Virus record (IMG/VR): IMGVR_UViG_3300028831_000133 | Location: 1-21,741 of that record | Source of the DNA: a virus | Reading direction: 5' to 3' (one strand) | DNA: 21,741 nt | Shown: positions 3,601 through 21,741 of the stretch, piece by piece | Position numbering within the stretch: the first letter of the stretch is position 1 | How the letters are laid out: the number at the start of each line of letters is the position of its first letter | The notes under the pieces: model-generated | Seen by the model: only the letters and a program-made list of their open reading frames with translations | What the model was told of the DNA's origin: nothing | The model's database searches: none | Position numbers and translations under genes: made by a program

Positions 3601-5786
3601 AGTGCATAGCCAGCACGGAGAAGCGTGCTGGCCTTCCACATGCCGTTGAATCCATCGGCGAAGGTCTTGATGTTGTCGGATACCTTTCCGCCATTCCTGG
3701 TCAGCAAGGAGAAGTGTCCACTGTTGCGGGAGAGGATCTTGTCGAGCTGGTCAACGTCGAGTAGTGGATCCGATGCGGCGAGCTGAGACTTGAGGAACGG
3801 TGCGACACGGTGGCCGTACCCGTCTTCGATGACATCGACATACTTACCGCTCTGAGTGGTGGCAGCACTGAACCTGCTGCTGGTCGGAGTGCGACCAGTC
3901 AGCTCATACATGGCCTTCTGCCAGCCCTCACCGATGATAGTGGAAGCAAAGTCGGCAACGTCGTCGTTCAGGTTATGGCTTCCAACCATGTGGCGAACAA
4001 TCTGCTGCTGGATATCATCCAGTGCAGCACTACGCGCGACCTTATCTCCAGCACTGGCGTACTGGTTGATGAGCGCCAGACGGTTCTCCTGGCCGAGACC
4101 TGGAACCCTCTTGAGCATGTCGTTGACACGATCCATTGCGTCGTCTGCATTGTGATCAACGAATCCCATGGGGACTCGATCACCGAACGACTGGTAGACC
4201 TTGAGCGGGAGAGAGAAGAATCCACGCTGGATGGTCCGGGTGAACATGTTGGAACCAGTTGCTTCGTATGCATCACGGTTGCGGGTAGCCGCCTTGATGG
4301 CGGCGTCCGCAGCATTCTCCGTATCACGCAATCCAAGGGGACCCATTCGGTACGCCCTGCTTACGGTGCCGAACAGGTTCGCACCGGCGGTGGTGATATC
4401 GTCAGGGTTCTTTCCGAAGTTCCTACCGAGGACATCGGAATACCAGTCAGAACGGGAGTTCAGGCCCTCAAGCTCAGCATCCGCAGCAGCGACCATACCC
4501 TTCTGCCACTTGGTTGCCCGGTTCACCCACGTCTTCGGGGTGTAGTTCGACTGGATCCTCTTGCCGAAGATCGCATCAGTGGCCTGCTCATACAGGCCCT
4601 GCTGAGTTGGAGTAAGACCATATGCCGCCTGCGGCATCGTCCCGGCCTTTCGGGCCTGGACGTAGTTATCCAGGATGTCGGCATCCCAAGGATGATCCGC
4701 CAGAAGATTGCGGTTGTCCTGAGCCTTGCCGATCTGAGACACCAGATCCTTGGATCCGGCGGTGAGTTCGGTCAGGGCCTTGTTGTCGCCCTGGGTGTAG
4801 CGCCAGATGAGAGGCATCTCGTCACGAGAAGCGCTACTCAGCACCTGGCCGATAGCCTCACGCTCCGCGATCTTTCGACGACCGCGACCCCAAACGGGAT
4901 GCTGGGCAATCTCGAAGGCGGACTTATCCTCAGCCCAGTCGAAGAACTTGTTCATCCTGTCGGACGAAGAGATCTCCTCGGCGGTCTTAGGTCCCCCGAA
5001 TACCGCCCTTCCCGCCTTCTGTGCAGCAGCTTCGGTTACACCGCTGACTCCACCCTTGGCAAAAGCCTGCCCAAGGGTTGGGAGTGGTGCGGTAATCTCT
5101 GCAGCCTGGAGAGATCGGGCACCCTTAACGGCCTTGGACAGACCTGCTGCAGCACCACCGATCGGATCGGCGACATTCGCAAGGAAGTCCATGGTGCCGG
5201 TACCAACGGTGTACTTCCAACCGTCACGGTTACGCCAGTAGTCCGAGTCGTACAGGAAGCGCTCAAGCTGCTGCTTCTGCTGCTGGTTCAGATTTCCAGT
5301 GTCGGGAATTCCGGGAGTGTCCTCCTCGTCCGAAGTCACGGTGCGCATGGTGTTGTACGCTGCCTGACCTGGCGAGATGTGCTCAGCCTTGTGCCATGCA
5401 TCACTCCACTGGTCACCAGAGAAGAACGTTCCTCCACCATAGATGTCAGCCTTACCACCCATGAGCAGAGCAGTGCTCAGAGGCTGACTCACATAGTTGC
5501 TGTACAGCCAGTAGGCTCCAGATGCAAGCTTTTCCAGCGGAGTAACAACAACGGCATGCGTGATGTTCTTGGTGACGCCCCACCCTGGAATATTGGACAG
5601 GGCCCCATCAACGGAATGCCACGCGGAACCGAGTCCACTCATGATCTGTTCCATAGCGCCAGCCCTCTGCTGGCGCGCCTGCTCATCCGCGACACTCTGT
5701 CCATAGATGGCGGCAGTATCCTGACCGGAAAGTAGCTGGTCAGGGGTAGTCGCAAAGGTGAGGGCGGTGGACGGGTCTGCGAACAT
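696..5786 (-). CDS. Giant (about 1700-residue) virion-associated protein
   Basis: This is by far the largest gene here: 1696 residues from the ATG at 5786. No enzyme motif was recognised. It is mostly alpha-helical and charged, with Ala/Gly-rich stretches (around residues 205-265), a weakly hydrophobic segment near residues 85-110, a coiled-coil-like stretch around residues 830-890, and an aromatic FFAPFMAAHVDGLERWFG segment in the second half. Size and place just downstream of the portal suggest an internal-virion/ejection or large head-tail structural protein; that is inference. The ATG lacks a good ribosome binding site. An in-frame extension reaches an ATT codon at 5831, 7 nt after TAGGAGGG, adding MSKWWAENVSDAGQG if read as a start. 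The stop overlaps the next gene's ATG. Confidence 0.85.
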   Translation of the reverse strand: MFADPSTALTFATTPDQLLSGQDTAAIYGQSVADEQARQQRAGAMEQIMSGLGSAWHSVDGALSNIPGWGVTKNITHAVVVTPLEKLASGAYWLYSNYVSQPLSTALLMGGKADIYGGGTFFSGDQWSDAWHKAEHISPGQAAYNTMRTVTSDEEDTPGIPDTGNLNQQQKQQLERFLYDSDYWRNRDGWKYTVGTGTMDFLANVADPIGGAAAGLSKAVKGARSLQAAEITAPLPTLGQAFAKGGVSGVTEAAAQKAGRAVFGGPKTAEEISSSDRMNKFFDWAEDKSAFEIAQHPVWGRGRRKIAEREAIGQVLSSASRDEMPLIWRYTQGDNKALTELTAGSKDLVSQIGKAQDNRNLLADHPWDADILDNYVQARKAGTMPQAAYGLTPTQQGLYEQATDAIFGKRIQSNYTPKTWVNRATKWQKGMVAAADAELEGLNSRSDWYSDVLGRNFGKNPDDITTAGANLFGTVSRAYRMGPLGLRDTENAADAAIKAATRNRDAYEATGSNMFTRTIQRGFFSLPLKVYQSFGDRVPMGFVDHNADDAMDRVNDMLKRVPGLGQENRLALINQYASAGDKVARSAALDDIQQQIVRHMVGSHNLNDDVADFASTIIGEGWQKAMYELTGRTPTSSRFSAATTQSGKYVDVIEDGYGHRVAPFLKSQLAASDPLLDVDQLDKILSRNSGHFSLLTRNGGKVSDNIKTFADGFNGMWKASTLLRAGYALRAPSEEMVAGAVKFGLLSAMADAGKGGWNFIRNRAQNVGLISGPGGKISILDPDMIAAARRNGLPVENVQVNKAFPLVQKYLSDHRSMQSELEKQIAIKQRRLSKATDPDTRDRLMDQIGIHQDDLDGVKGVIDEFTDYSHEMLRQAAARSSKYRIGEGTYSFMGEEVPQPFNKAWAGVIPRDQITSEDAMASIFARQEAINKSQYIKTGSWTTSTPDMPGYMDAWLRAINHQLGNDPVARMLMEDPTGDKAMSFLKSAEGRQHLRNFGRQSQDPKNFLGLLKTHLDQYLPEGTGLRQKLLNGDDVTEADLRNSIRQEDFPSIHDEEIKSITDKEKKSVSSMMDNAIATGFKYLGTIPSDIMSRQPIYVRAQMAHMKDLITANKSYKAENGLPMSVTEDEMNQMMQTADKRARNTLSQVVYDPQRTTATQALRFFAPFMAAHVDGLERWFGLVAEKPELLNTASKIYNAPVAANLVTDQNGNVVDEDGYVTHRDEKGNIIDRTFVSQSDRYLHLKIPGGTRNVKGIQGGVPEGGITLPFSSLNTILPGDPWWNPGTGPIVQIAGSKVAEMSPSMGDFLQWAKVLPYGPQGVMDSVTPAYMKTLWSAWQGDDPDNTKFQQTMLEEWQRQVAEHANGGPEPDMKKVVANSKQFTFLKALTQFVSPTSVQMSPLQGTPYQFFVDQYKQLQELNPKTASQVFLKTYGADYYGFTAALNKSIGINSTTSAVNTAEKYKDMIGEHPELAGLIVGPYNGGEFSQTANKMLQDMNFAGIPGREKMTAYDAIDNNEKSLGWDQYKKYAGLVDAALIRAGYRSYTDPGAEQFQLVKDAVIQHVGQEYPAWEKDFSTQDKNAVPRRIDAMKQIIQDQSLMSDPMRSDLQTLKLYLQARDVIQAQLLQRSNTSLTARDSDGRLENADLAQIWGNVQLGLVQSDTKFNDLFNRYLANDQLQFGIEGQIAKTTQKIKGERK

Positions 5787-11670: not shown

Positions 11671-12048
11671 CTTGGCCCTTGGCACATACCTTCGTAGATG
11701 CGTAGCACTTACCGGCCCCTTGTAACTCGTAACCGCTCTCGCCTTGAGGGTAGCATACGCAGTCAAGTTTCCGCAAATTCCCGGGCGTGTCGTGATCAAG
11801 GATTCCAGTGGTCTAGACAGGTGGTACCCAAACGACCCTTGTCCCACTTGGGTCCCAAGACTTTATGACGGAATTTTTGTAGGACTCACCCACCCACCCA
11901 TGCCGCCAGTTTAAAACCCCCGGGTCCATGACAGGTCGTACACGGTGGAAACCAAAGGATGCCTGATGACCATGGAATCTGCGGCTCACTCACTCCCCGC
12001 GCCTAAGGATCCAAGGTGATCATGCCCTGTTGACCATGGACTCAGTGG

Positions 12049-12363: not shown

Positions 12364-12425
12364 TGTTCTGACCATGGACACGTCATCGGTGTGGATACGA
12401 TACACCGCATACGAAAACGGCCTCT

Positions 12426-12488
12426 GACCTGCAGTTCTTGACAGGTCTCATGATCTGGAGGAACGTTCTCGGTGTCAGCAGTACCGAG
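12426..12488 (+). promoter_or_regulatory. Two stem-loops in the leader of the 12509 gene
   Basis: GACCTG/CAGGTC (12426-12447) is followed by CTCGGT/ACCGAG (12468-12488). The GTG start lies 20 nt further on, after ACGGAGG. The two-stem arrangement resembles the leaders of the small genes downstream. A TTGACA at 12438 lies inside the first stem and has no matching -10. Confidence 0.45.
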
Positions 12489-12508
12489 ACAGTGAACGGA
12501 GGTTTCAA

Positions 12509-12694
12509 GTGAGCGACAAGGTGAACGAGTACCTGGCCTACCTGGACAAGGCCGTGGAGCAGGGCGAGAAGCTGATGCGCTTCGGTGAGTGGATGAGGGT
12601 CAAGGACCTGATCCGCTACTGCCACTGTGGTGGCACCATCGCCACCAGCACCAACCGCTGTTCCATCTGCTCCATCCCTGAGGACTGCTACTAA
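12509..12694 (+). CDS. 61-aa zinc-ribbon-like protein
   Basis: The GTG start at 12509 follows ACGGAGG by 6 nt, a good ribosome binding site. The N-terminal half is a charged amphipathic helix (MSDKVNEYLAYLDKAVEQG). The C-terminal half carries CHCGG and CSICSIPEDC, two CxC/CxxC knuckles that would bind one zinc ion. There is no enzymatic motif, so a nucleic-acid-binding or protein-docking role is possible but unproven. It stands alone in the 2.2-kb structured region, with two leader stem-loops upstream and a hammerhead ribozyme starting 23 nt after its stop. Its mRNA 3' end is therefore probably made by ribozyme cleavage. Confidence 0.75.
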   Translation: MSDKVNEYLAYLDKAVEQGEKLMRFGEWMRVKDLIRYCHCGGTIATSTNRCSICSIPEDCY

Positions 12695-12714
12695 CCGCTC
12701 GCCCCCAGCACCAT

Positions 12715-12783
12715 CTAGGACGAAACCTAGGCGCCCTTCAAGGGCGCCGATGGTCCACGGTTTACTACCGTGCTGATGAGTCC
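12715..12783 (+). ncRNA. Type II hammerhead ribozyme
   Basis: All conserved core elements are present in the type II permutation. Stem II strand GGAC (12718-12721) is followed by GAA (12722-12724) and A15.1 (12725). Stem III is C726-C727/G752-G753, then a small internal loop and a 7-bp GGCGCCC/GGGCGCC hairpin (12730-12748, loop UUCAA). U16.1 (12754) and C17 (12755) complete a GUC cleavage site. Stem I is CACGGT/ACCGTG (12756-12772, loop UUACU). CUGAUGA (12773-12779) and GUCC (12780-12783) close stem II, including the canonical G10.1-C11.1 pair. Predicted self-cleavage is after C12755. CTAGG (12715-12719) can alternatively pair with CCTAG (12726-12730). Type II hammerheads are known from bacteria and phages. 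Confidence 0.88.
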
Positions 12784-12804
12784 AGAGTGGTACGGCTCAA
12801 CACC

Positions 12805-12832
12805 TTGACAACGGCACATGCTTTGCTAGTCT
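12805..12832 (+). promoter_or_regulatory. Promoter 1: TTGACA-N16-TAGTCT
   Basis: A perfect -35 (12805-12810), a 16-nt spacer and TAGTCT (12827-12832), which fits the TAnnnT pattern of actinobacterial -10 boxes and is preceded by TGC as an extended -10. It lies 22 nt after the ribozyme and points towards the small-gene array. Confidence 0.7.
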
Positions 12833-12915
12833 TGCACCTAGCTTTACTGGACAGCTTGAGCCGGACACCTCCTAGAGGCCAACGAGGATCAAGCTTCTAA
12901 CCGAAGCTAAGGGAC

Positions 12916-12943
12916 TTGACAAAGCGAAGTAAGTTGCTAGAGT
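12916..12943 (+). promoter_or_regulatory. Promoter 2: TTGACA-N16-TAGAGT
   Basis: It has the same design as promoter 1, 111 bp downstream: TTGACA (12916-12921), 16 nt, then TTGC-TAGAGT with the -10 at 12938-12943. The shared TGCTAG and spacer length suggest one sigma factor reads both. Confidence 0.72.
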
Positions 12944-12963
12944 CGAGACCAGCAAGACTGCAA

Positions 12964-12987
12964 GACAGTGGGAACCCTGCCACTGTC
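12964..12987 (+). terminator. 8-bp stem-loop just after promoter 2, possible attenuator
   Basis: GACAGTGG (12964-12971) pairs with CCACTGTC (12980-12987) around an 8-nt loop. It would lie about 15 nt into the promoter 2 transcript. No T-run follows, so a 5'-protective stem is as likely as an attenuator. Confidence 0.5.
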
Positions 12988-13046
12988 CCAAGGTAACACT
13001 TAGGGCGCTCGGTTCGAGAGTGGCTTACCTGGTCCTTGACCGGAGA

Positions 13047-13055
13047 TGCTAGGAT
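13047..13055 (+). promoter_or_regulatory. Weak third -10-like element (TGC-TAGGAT)
   Basis: It shares the extended TGC-TAGnnT form with promoters 1 and 2. The only TTGACC nearby (13036) is 8 nt away, too close for a -35. Listed for its resemblance only. Confidence 0.25.
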
Positions 13056-13566
13056 CCTCCGAGTAGCACAACGGAGCACACAGTCCCCAAGCTGTGTGAT
13101 GCCACTCCGAGTACACCTTGGGACCCGAGTACCGTAAGGCTCAGGTGCGGACCTGGACAGGCCGTAACCCACCATGCGATAGGTGGAATATGTCCTAGGC
13201 CTCATGACATGAGGTAGTCAGGGAGAGTGGTTAGCTGTAATGGCGCCACTTGAACTAAGCGCTCGAACCTTGATAACTGAACAAACATGGCTCCTCTGAG
13301 TTGAGCTTGGCGATCCGCTACATGGAAGGCCCCAGACGATACACGCTGCGGACGAATGTGTGGTAGGTAGCCAGTGGGATGGACGTAAGCATCCTCGAAT
13401 CTCTCTTCTCTTCCTGGTTGGGAGGGCTGCTAGTGGGTAGCACCGTTAGCGGCTCTCCCGGAGAGTCGAGATCCTAAGCCTAAGGATGAAAGACGCTCGC
13501 GTCTGAATGGGGCAACCCGGCTGCGGCCACCTACGGGACGAACGGTAAGGATTTCGATTGTCCAGG

Positions 13567-13591
13567 GATCCGATCCCTCAAGGATCGGATC
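13567..13591 (+). terminator. 10-bp stem-loop before the first array gene
   Basis: GATCCGATCC (13567-13576) pairs with GGATCGGATC (13582-13591) around CTCAA, followed by TTCAACC. It sits 9 nt upstream of the GGAGGG ribosome binding site, opening the series of gene-by-gene stem-loops. Confidence 0.6.
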
Positions 13592-13611
13592 TTCAACCAT
13601 GGAGGGAACAC

Positions 13612-13809
13612 ATGGCGAGCCTGCAACTTACCTTCTTTCAGAAGGATGAGCGCATCGGATCGGAGACGATCTACGATGCTCTCAGCCGTCCGGAACAGCA
13701 GATCAGGGCCGTGGAAATGGCCAGGATCAAGTATCCTCAGGCCGACAAGGTGACTGGTCTGTACAGCGGCTGGTCCGGCTCCCGTTCGTTCACGATCGAG
13801 AACCCGTGA
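13612..13809 (+). CDS. 65-aa protein of unknown function
   Basis: The ATG at 13612 follows GGAGGGAACAC, an excellent ribosome binding site. A longer frame from 13558 would run through the stem-loop and is rejected. The product starts MASLQLTFFQKDERIG, has a helical middle (LSRPEQQIRAVEMARIKY) and ends in a small beta-like segment (GLYSGWSGSRSFTIENP). No family was recognised. Its TGA overlaps the GTG of the next gene (GTGA), so the two are probably translated together. Confidence 0.75.
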   Translation: MASLQLTFFQKDERIGSETIYDALSRPEQQIRAVEMARIKYPQADKVTGLYSGWSGSRSFTIENP

Positions 13810-13982
13810 CCGCCCGTAAGGACAAGGGTGGCAATCAGACGCCCGAGTCCATACATCAACGGCAGCTCAAGTGCACGCATCCCCGATGGGATGCGTGGTA
13901 CGTCCCCTACTGGGACCCCAAGCACAAGTACCGCACGTGCCTGAACTGTGAGAAGGTCGAAGCCAAGTACATCGGTTGGTAG
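13806..13982 (+). CDS. 58-aa putative zinc-finger protein
   Basis: The GTG at 13806 overlaps the preceding TGA by 4 nt (GTGA). The product is basic and aromatic. It carries KCTHPRWDAWYVPYWD followed by KYRTCLNCEKVEAKYIGW, that is C-x2-H at about residues 23-25 and C-x2-C at about 46-49, consistent with one zinc site. The arrangement resembles short treble-clef proteins common in actinophages. It might bind DNA or RNA, or a host protein; there is no direct evidence. A GGAG just before the next ATG overlaps its stop region. Confidence 0.7.
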   Translation: MTARKDKGGNQTPESIHQRQLKCTHPRWDAWYVPYWDPKHKYRTCLNCEKVEAKYIGW

Positions 13983-13990
13983 GAGTCTTC

Positions 13991-14182
13991 ATGTGGGAAC
14001 ACGTCTGCACCATCGAGGATGATGGTGTCAAGTGCACCGAACGAAGCACCGTGGCTACACAGTGTTTCCGTTACGGTGACGAGAAGTTCGACCGTGCCAT
14101 ATGGGTCGAAACGTGTGAGATCCACTCGTGGGAATGCAGCGAGATCGTCAGCATTCTCGACGTTAGCGTCTACAGTAAGTGA
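13991..14182 (+). CDS. 63-aa Cys-rich protein of unknown function
   Basis: The ATG at 13991 lies 5 nt after AGGAG, itself embedded in the preceding TAG. The start at 13976 has no ribosome binding site. The product has five Cys (HVCTIEDDGVKC, TQCF, ETCEIHSWEC) and two nearby His, which could make a zinc site or disulphides. No family was recognised. It is the third of three tightly spaced genes that share one upstream stem-loop and end at the 14200 terminator. Confidence 0.7.
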   Translation: MWEHVCTIEDDGVKCTERSTVATQCFRYGDEKFDRAIWVETCEIHSWECSEIVSILDVSVYSK

Positions 14183-14199
14183 CTGTGACCAAGGTTGAT

Positions 14200-14263
14200 C
14201 AGCGGCCCTTCACGGGGCCGCTGGTTTTCCCGGCATCACAGCCGAAACCAGAGGGAGAGAACA
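14200..14263 (+). terminator. Terminator plus short stem and ribosome binding site (cassette 1)
   Basis: CAGCGGCCC (14200-14208) pairs with GGGCCGCTG (14215-14223), followed by GTTTT, a normal intrinsic terminator. Then a short CGGC-ATCACA-GCCG stem (14231-14244) and GAGGGAGAGA precede the next ATG. The 20 nt at 14227-14246 recur exactly at 14547-14566. Confidence 0.75.
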
Positions 14264-14515
14264 ATGGCCTACCTGACCAAGAGCAACCCCAACTTCGAGG
14301 CCACCTTTCTGATGCCCAACGAGAACACCGGGGAGAGTGTCTGGGTGTTCGTCTCCAAGATTGGTGGCGGGACGCTCGGGCGTGAATACGATGGCTGCTG
14401 GGACGTCAAGGTGGTCGACTTCGACCAGAAGGAACTTTTCAGCGACGAGATCTACACCAGTCTCCCGCGTTCCCACCGAAAGATGGCTCACCTGGCGGTC
14501 GAATCCTATCTGTGA
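14264..14515 (+). CDS. 83-aa protein of unknown function
   Basis: The ATG at 14264 follows GAGGGAGAGA. The product (MAYLTKSNPNFEATFLMP...) is predicted mostly beta by eye, with alternating hydrophobic residues (SVWVFVSKIGGG, CWDVKVVDFDQ) and a short helical tail. No membrane segment, signal peptide or catalytic motif is evident. It is the first single-gene unit of the array: a stem-loop lies on each side, so it can be expressed as its own message. Confidence 0.75.
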   Translation: MAYLTKSNPNFEATFLMPNENTGESVWVFVSKIGGGTLGREYDGCWDVKVVDFDQKELFSDEIYTSLPRSHRKMAHLAVESYL

Positions 14516-15253: not shown

Positions 15254-15655
15254 ATGGTCCACATCACCGAAGAGAACATGCTCGACACCCTGAGGGGGAT
15301 CATCGAGGAGAGGGGTGAGAACTACGTCTATGAAGGCAGCGACGAGTCGGACAGCTGCCTGTATGTTCACCAAGTGAACGGCGATCTCGTTCCCGGGTGC
15401 CTTGTCGGCACCGCGCTCCACCGCCTCGGGGTTCCCTTGCAGACCATGACGTGGCATGAGGGTGCGAGTGCCCATGGCCTGCTCCGTAGGCTGACCAAAA
15501 TTGGGGTCATCGAGGGAGGGGCGGACCACATTGCCTTTGCCCTTAATGAGGCGCAGGCCTATCAGGACAAGGGATCCAGCTGGGGCTATGCCCTGCGTAT
15601 ATATGAGCGTCGCATGCATGAACTCAAGTTCGAAGAGAACCACGAGCCCGAGTAG
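15254..15655 (+). CDS. 133-aa protein with PGC-x-VG motif, paralogue of the 18405 gene
   Basis: The ATG at 15254 follows AGAGGAGAGAGA. The N-terminal helix contains IIEERGENYVYEG; the 18405 product has VIRERGENYMYTN at the same place. PGCLVGTALHRLGV here matches PGCIVGSAILSTGL there. Both end with a Trp/Tyr-containing helix (SSWGYALRIYERR here, YTWKQAYDYAWEQ there). This makes them distant paralogues. The Cys-Val-Gly helix motif recurs in small actinophage proteins of unknown role, from memory. No enzymatic residues stand out. Confidence 0.8.
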   Translation: MVHITEENMLDTLRGIIEERGENYVYEGSDESDSCLYVHQVNGDLVPGCLVGTALHRLGVPLQTMTWHEGASAHGLLRRLTKIGVIEGGADHIAFALNEAQAYQDKGSSWGYALRIYERRMHELKFEENHEPE

Positions 15656-20996: not shown

Positions 20997-21703
20997 CACC
21001 AGATCCTCCCGTCGAATGCGAACCGACCGCTCGAGGCGACGATCAGCTCGGGAAAACTGTTGACTCCATCGTCATGAACCAGGCCGAAAGCCTGGTTCCA
21101 GGTAGAGTAACCGTCCTTCAAGTACGTCGCCTTGGACTTGTCCATACCGTGACCTACGTTCATAGCCCACCGAGTCCTGGCAGAGTTTCCTGTACCCACT
21201 GCTGTTGTGACGAGTAGAGGTGTATGGGTGTGCCCGTAGACGACGTTAGCGTCATACTCCCGGCTTCGATCCAGTCCGTACTTTCCGGGGACCGAGGAGT
21301 AGGCTCGCTCGTGTCCGTGCACGAGCATAGTGTCACTGGAGACACGAAACGGTCCAGCGACGAGCTGTACACCGGCTTCATCAAGTCCGGCCAGGACTCC
21401 GAAATCCAGCGAACGCAGGCCTGACAGGCCGGGTGCGTTGTCGGCAATGTACTTCTCCGTTCGGTCATCGTGATTGCTCTTCACCATGAGCATTCCACAG
21501 GATCGACCGGCAGCCTCTCGAAAGGCTGCCAGCACATCGGATGCCTTGTCGAACGCCTCCTGAAGCTTACCCGTGTATTCGCCAGCGGTTCCCTTGACCC
21601 ACCGGCCGACCTCGGTCGAGTCGGTAAGGTCGCCGACGAAGGCGAGAACATCGGGTTCGATGTACTCCGTTACCGCAAGCAGCTTCCCCAGATACCGCTC
21701 CAC
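20996..21703 (-). CDS. Calcineurin-like metallophosphoesterase, N-terminus missing
   Basis: 235 residues from a GTG at 21703 that is probably internal, since the frame stays open to the contig end and adds at least EPLI upstream. Metal-site motifs in order are GDLTDS (24-29; D25, D28), SNHDD (76-80; N77, H78), HGHE (129-132) and GHTHTP (157-162). These are motifs II-V of two-metal phosphoesterases; motif I (DxH) would lie just upstream and is lost. Phage members act on DNA, cyclic nucleotides or phosphoproteins, and the substrate cannot be told here. First visible gene of the operon with the 34-aa and sigma-like genes. Confidence 0.85.
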   Translation of the reverse strand: MERYLGKLLAVTEYIEPDVLAFVGDLTDSTEVGRWVKGTAGEYTGKLQEAFDKASDVLAAFREAAGRSCGMLMVKSNHDDRTEKYIADNAPGLSGLRSLDFGVLAGLDEAGVQLVAGPFRVSSDTMLVHGHERAYSSVPGKYGLDRSREYDANVVYGHTHTPLLVTTAVGTGNSARTRWAMNVGHGMDKSKATYLKDGYSTWNQAFGLVHDDGVNSFPELIVASSGRFAFDGRIW

Positions 21704-21741
21704 GATGAGCGGTTCCTGGGGAAGCTGCTTGCGGTAACGGA
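21666..21741. repeat. Fold-back inverted repeat at right contig end
   Basis: Positions 21666-21691 are the exact reverse complement of 21716-21741 (26 bp). Inside are a 2-bp mismatch and a natural 7-bp hairpin (ACCGCTC/GAGCGGT). The last 26 bp are probably a snap-back copy. Genuine sequence likely ends near 21715, truncating the metallophosphoesterase gene. Confidence 0.8.

Follow-up and report, generated by a model that had tools for sequence, protein, structure and literature searches.

The zinc-ribbon gene and its surroundings

The DNA analysed here, a stretch of 21,741 nucleotides (hereafter the window), is the IMG/VR virus record IMGVR_UViG_3300028831_000133. On its plus strand, a promoter-like element, a small zinc-ribbon-like gene, the sequence of a type II hammerhead and a putative promoter/leader region follow one another, as listed below.

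12420-12480, plus: promoter-like element (TTGACA ... GTTCTCGGTGTCAG), putative promoter upstream of the zinc-ribbon gene
12509-12694, plus: zinc-ribbon-like gene of 61 codons with CxC...CxxC cysteines, from the open reading frame list
12710-12715, plus: ACCAUC, complementary to GAUGGU 12749-12754, from the partition function in native context
12716-12718, plus: second in-frame TAG, overlapping stem II, read from the sequence; modal stop position in phage type II hammerheads
12718-12721, plus: stem II 5' strand GGAC, from sequence, fold and covariance model
12722-12725, plus: core G12-A13-A14-A15.1, from sequence and covariance model
12725-12754, plus: stem III, closed, with a UA/GAU internal loop three pairs from the core, from sequence, fold and relatives
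12754, plus: U16.1, from sequence
12755, plus: C17, cleavage predicted 3' of this base from its core position
12756-12761/12767-12772, plus: stem I, closed, CACGGU/ACCGUG with loop UUACU, from sequence and fold
12773-12779, plus: core CUGAUGA, from sequence and covariance model
12780-12783, plus: stem II 3' strand GUCC, from sequence and fold
12805-13500, plus: putative promoter/leader region with TTGACA at 12805 and 12916 and no convincing gene

The terminase of the window is 66-69% identical to those of the Streptomyces Beephvirinae phages FlowerPower, WRightOn, JXY1 and ZooBear. In these phages the genome ends upstream of TerL, and we therefore infer that the zinc-ribbon gene, together with the ribozyme, matches the right genome end, where the early transcript starts. 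The promoter-like element is common to the right ends of the Streptomyces phage genomes: blastn aligned it with FlowerPower (76% over 62 nt, E 1.3e-4) and gave short matches in WRightOn, JXY1 and ZooBear, so that a transcript crossing the ribozyme is plausible. A pattern search of IMG/VR for the same element found none. The zinc-ribbon gene has a GTG start after GGAGG and ends at TAA 12692-12694, and the C-terminal part of its product matches open reading frames in two TerL relatives, L003 and L004 (tblastn E about 1e-3). The protein had no PHROGs match and no relatives in IMG/VR by peptide patterns, and at the DNA level no relatives of 12500-14300 were found among named phages.

A complete type II hammerhead core lies between 12718 and 12783

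Direct reading of the plus strand gave a complete type II hammerhead core at 12718-12783, 5'-GGAC GAAA CCUAGGCGCCCUUCAAGGGCGCCGAUGG UC / CACGGUUUACUACCGUG CUGAUGA GUCC, in which the slash marks the predicted cleavage site. All of the invariant bases (C3, U4, G5, A6, G8, A9, G12, A13, A14, A15.1, U16.1 and H17, the last being C12755) are present, and the pairs next to the core are intact, namely G12780-C12721 (10.1-11.1), C12756-G12772 (1.1-2.1) and A12725-U12754 (15.1-16.1). An earlier note on this DNA, which had proposed a complete type II hammerhead on the rightward strand with no core position violated, was thus borne out, as were its distances: C12755 lies 61 nt past the TAA of the zinc-ribbon gene and 50 nt before TTGACA at 12805. 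In the fold of 12712-12790, stems I and III are closed by loops and stem II is open; the hammerhead is the predicted structure of this isolated 79-nt RNA (-34.1 kcal/mol, z -3.4). Stem III is indeed closed, as had been claimed, but its helix is interrupted by an internal loop that had gone unmentioned, and it consists of ACC/GGU, then UA/GAU, then GGCGCCCU/AGGGCGCC. Among 1500 simulated windows with the dinucleotide make-up of the window, a loose hammerhead descriptor had 10 matches, and the descriptor with the observed stem lengths had none.

In type II hammerheads, loop I often, though not always, makes a tertiary contact with the tail that follows stem II. In the window this pairing is weak, with three Watson-Crick pairs possible. 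Pairings of at least five pairs, of which the window has none, occur in 12 of the 146 phage hammerheads that we collected (see below), against 2.5 expected, and are therefore enriched.

The Rfam cut-off and a purpose-built covariance model

The Rfam Hammerhead_II model (RF02276) gave 13.2 bits for a short stretch, compared with a curated cut-off of 37, and a scan of the whole window at that cut-off returned no Hammerhead_II match. The threshold check that the earlier note had set thus formally failed. When 14 other phage loci were searched at the same cut-off, Rfam recovered 4 of their 57 descriptor-defined hammerheads and missed the remaining 53, and we attribute the miss in the window to the narrowness of the model. 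The 37-bit cut-off is a property of the model, not a defining trait of the type II hammerhead.

We trained a covariance model on 39 phage hammerheads that did not match the search pattern derived from the window. This model found 12716-12785 with 49.1 bits (E about 7e-13), and the second-best site in the window scored 10.6 bits. In the alignment of the 39 hammerheads, 99% of cells were paired and 14 of 16 pairs had changed on both sides, a strong covariation that is not independent proof of the fold, the sequences having been picked by a pairing descriptor.

The internal loop of stem III is shared with other phage hammerheads

The internal loop of stem III in the window matches that of other phage hammerheads. 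Of the 10 hammerheads in our collection whose outer stem III has only three pairs, 8 carry UA opposite GAU or GAC. In a second scan, with CCU and GAUGG fixed and the A left free, the A was present in 32 of 33 hammerheads. The resulting module, CCUAG/CGAUGG, found within 12725-12754 of the window and in 32 IMG/VR hammerheads, resembles the 11-nt GAAA-tetraloop receptor, CCUAAG/UAUGG (PMC11381326), yet differs from it. The module at its fixed distance from the core would mark a structural subfamily of phage type II hammerheads.

The collected phage type II hammerheads tend to follow a stop codon

The placement of these elements was examined in a sample of 146 distinct type II hammerheads on 68 contigs, the window included, from which exact duplicates alone had been removed; it came from two IMG/VR pattern scans and a descriptor scan of the first locus set and is a selection, not a census. 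When open frames of 30 codons or more were counted, the upstream frame had its stop codon 4-13 nt before GAAA in 99 of the 146 hammerheads, compared with 7.5% of random same-strand positions. The modal placement, seen in 37 cases, is TAG-GAC-GAAA, in which the G of the stop codon is the first base of stem II. The next start codon follows CUGANGA at a median of 21 nt. In the window the gene ends earlier, at its TAA, yet the in-frame TAG at 12716-12718 sits exactly at the modal position. Some contigs hold 10-11 hammerhead copies, in agreement with published hammerheads flanking single phage genes (PMC3088659).

We tentatively propose, while giving the idea a low probability, that phage type II hammerheads are coupled to translation termination and that the window, with its second in-frame TAG and strong competing fold, represents a derived case. 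We measured the placement of the stop codons; the coupling is what we propose from it. If it were true, a ribosome terminating on the upstream gene would sit over part of the ribozyme, and cleavage would then signal whether that gene is being translated. The term "stop codon" does not occur in the main text of PMC3088659, and we found no paper describing a coupling of hammerheads to stop codons in a search that missed most subscription journals.

One further arrangement was seen at 6820-7350 of contig L131, where a gene lies between two type II hammerheads that have identical stem I and tail sequences. Behind the second hammerhead follows a gene distantly related (32%) to the window open reading frame at 15254-15655. 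The arrangement suggests ribozyme-bounded gene cassettes moving between phages.

The hammerhead is rare in the clade

One TerL relative of the window, L006, carries a type II hammerhead that scores 54.5 bits and lies on the same strand, some 1.5 kb upstream of TerL. It immediately follows the stop codon of another small gene, and its stem sequences differ from those of the window. No hammerhead above noise was detected in L003, L004, L007, L008, L009, L012, L015, L016 and L026, nor in the four isolates FlowerPower, WRightOn, JXY1 and ZooBear. The element is thus present at this locus in 1 of about 13 relatives for which the region was in hand, rare and patchy in the clade; with none in the four isolates, these counts indicate that the ribozyme is dispensable. 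Another TerL relative, L014, gave a weak match to the hammerhead model at 5055-5096 on the minus strand (18.3 bits, E 0.02).

A competing inactive fold is predicted in native context

Upstream sequence changes the predicted fold. For RNA from 12695 onwards, the predicted minimum is an inactive fold in which ACCAUC 12710-12715 pairs with GAUGGU 12749-12754 and UAGG 12716-12719 with CCUA 12726-12729, and the probability of stem II is 0.00-0.07; for RNA starting at 12712, the probability of the hammerhead is near 0.99. The inactive fold is predicted to form while the 3' strand of stem II has yet to be transcribed. Given 20 nt of upstream sequence, the minimum-energy structure is the hammerhead in only 71 of the 146 family members, in a calculation whose energy model omits core and tertiary stability.

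A CTAGG/CCTAG helix had been suggested in the earlier note as a possible switch, and it turned out to be part of this larger inactive fold. As a conserved feature the switch was rejected on counts: helices of this type with at least five pairs occur in 8 of the 146 hammerheads, and an upstream arm with six pairs occurs in 3 of the 33 closest structural relatives against about 1.4 expected, which is no enrichment. We retain it as a property of the window sequence, where it belongs to the predicted minimum. The hammerhead of L117, 82% identical over 50 nt, retains both arms of the inactive fold.

The region downstream resembles an rRNA leader

Some 700-780 nt of putative promoter/leader region, with no convincing gene, follow the hammerhead of the window, which departs from the family rule. 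Near 13270 the window has an altered rRNA-leader-like box, TTGATAACTGAACA. Relatives carry TTGAGAACTC boxes after TTGACA-type promoters, on the minus strands of L003 (about 1400-700), L004 (about 500-1) and L007 (about 1220-700), and the rRNA-leader-like region is also found at the right ends of L160, L161 and L163 and in L162. A longer form of the box, TTGAGAACTCAACAGCGTG, lies 112-233 nt before 16S rRNA in 36 of 37 judgeable bacterial loci. By this resemblance, the non-coding stretch 3' of the ribozyme has the look of an actinobacterial rRNA promoter/leader, copied or mimicked, and its box may recruit host antitermination factors to early phage RNA. A tRNA array to the right of the ribozyme was considered and rejected, ARAGORN finding none in the window or its relatives.

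A model for the ribozyme and its alternatives

We think it very probable that the phage, a relative of the Streptomyces Beephvirinae, carries here a type II hammerhead ribozyme that acts in cis on the rightward early transcript, with a predicted cut after C12755. The sequence, the isolated fold, the score of the independent model, the counterpart in L006 and the habit of the family to sit at gene boundaries all support this. By analogy with established hammerhead chemistry, the RNA of 12718-12783 would fold and cut itself after C12755, in a transcript starting upstream of the zinc-ribbon gene near the shared element at 12420-12480 and running through the ribozyme. Upstream of the cut, this would leave a short zinc-ribbon mRNA whose 3' end is the stem III hairpin with a 2',3'-cyclic phosphate; the RNA downstream of the cut would begin with a 5'-OH and the stem I hairpin, followed by the promoter/leader region and the early genes. 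We infer both the transcription through the ribozyme and a benefit to the phage, which would likely lie in making the stability and the translation of the first message independent of the leader RNA that follows. The separation of message from array proposed in the earlier note is thereby kept in outline, the ribozyme lying between the zinc-ribbon gene and the promoter array.

The predicted inactive fold invites a different reading, in which this three-way fold (ACCAUC/GAUGGU with UAGG/CCUA) would form first during transcription and delay cleavage or, in a variant, cleavage would depend on a ribosome, a protein or the speed of transcription. We consider such a switchable hammerhead, the variant included, to be unlikely. 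The predicted formation of the inactive fold ahead of stem II, its standing as the predicted minimum in native context and the retention of both of its arms in L117 speak for this reading; against it, the upstream arm is not enriched in the closest structural relatives, the helix of at least five pairs occurs in 8 of the 146 hammerheads, and half of the family misses the hammerhead under the same energy model, which leaves out core and tertiary stability. The inactive fold would also suit a hammerhead that was transferred with a gene cassette, decayed to inactivity and persisted by chance, as would the patchy presence in the clade and a downstream neighbour that, unlike in most of the family, is not a gene. 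Decay nevertheless seems improbable to us, since no invariant base or core pair has been lost, stem III has the internal loop of other phage hammerheads and the independent model scores the element highly. A chance resemblance with no ribozyme at all would agree with the score below the Rfam cut-off, but is barely credible given that none of the 1500 simulated windows reproduced these stem lengths and given the E value of the independent model.

Comparison with known phage hammerheads

Type II hammerheads at phage and prophage gene boundaries have been known since 2011 (Perreault et al. 2011, PMC3088659), when tandem phage and prophage hammerheads were shown to cleave in vitro and a role in cutting long phage transcripts was proposed. 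The hammerhead of the window shares with those of RF02276 and that study the core bases, the open stem II, a position between small phage genes and the proposal of transcript processing. It differs from them in scoring below the cut-off, in the UA/GAU loop of stem III, in the weak pairing of loop I with the tail and in being followed by a promoter/leader region rather than a gene. Counterparts in the IMG/VR contigs L006, L131, L084, L096, L117 and L091 have the core of the window, mostly its GGAC/GUCC stem II, and a position after a stop codon; L131, L096, L117 and L091 also have its UA/GAU (or UA/GAC) internal loop. All six differ from the window in the sequences of stem I and distal stem III and, unlike the window, have a start codon close downstream. 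The hammerhead of the window is thus a sound additional example of the type II hammerheads known from phages, with cleavage predicted. With it, a well-supported ribozyme is placed among the relatives of the Streptomyces Beephvirinae, none of whose searched isolates has one. The public Rfam model misses most ribozymes of the type II kind in the sampled phage contigs. The stop-codon rule and the shared stem III loop offer testable ideas on how phages use these ribozymes, a question open since 2011.

Other observations on the record

Long inverted repeats with the same peptides on both strands occupy the record ends (60-147 and 21666-21741 of the window); they give false microRNA matches in Rfam and are most likely assembly fold-backs. 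Upstream of TerL, a 45-nt element at 11882-11926 of the window recurs in relatives at 76-89% identity (L001, L004, L006, L009, L011, L012, L013, L015, L026 and L162, JXY1 included) and is possibly a cos site or a promoter.
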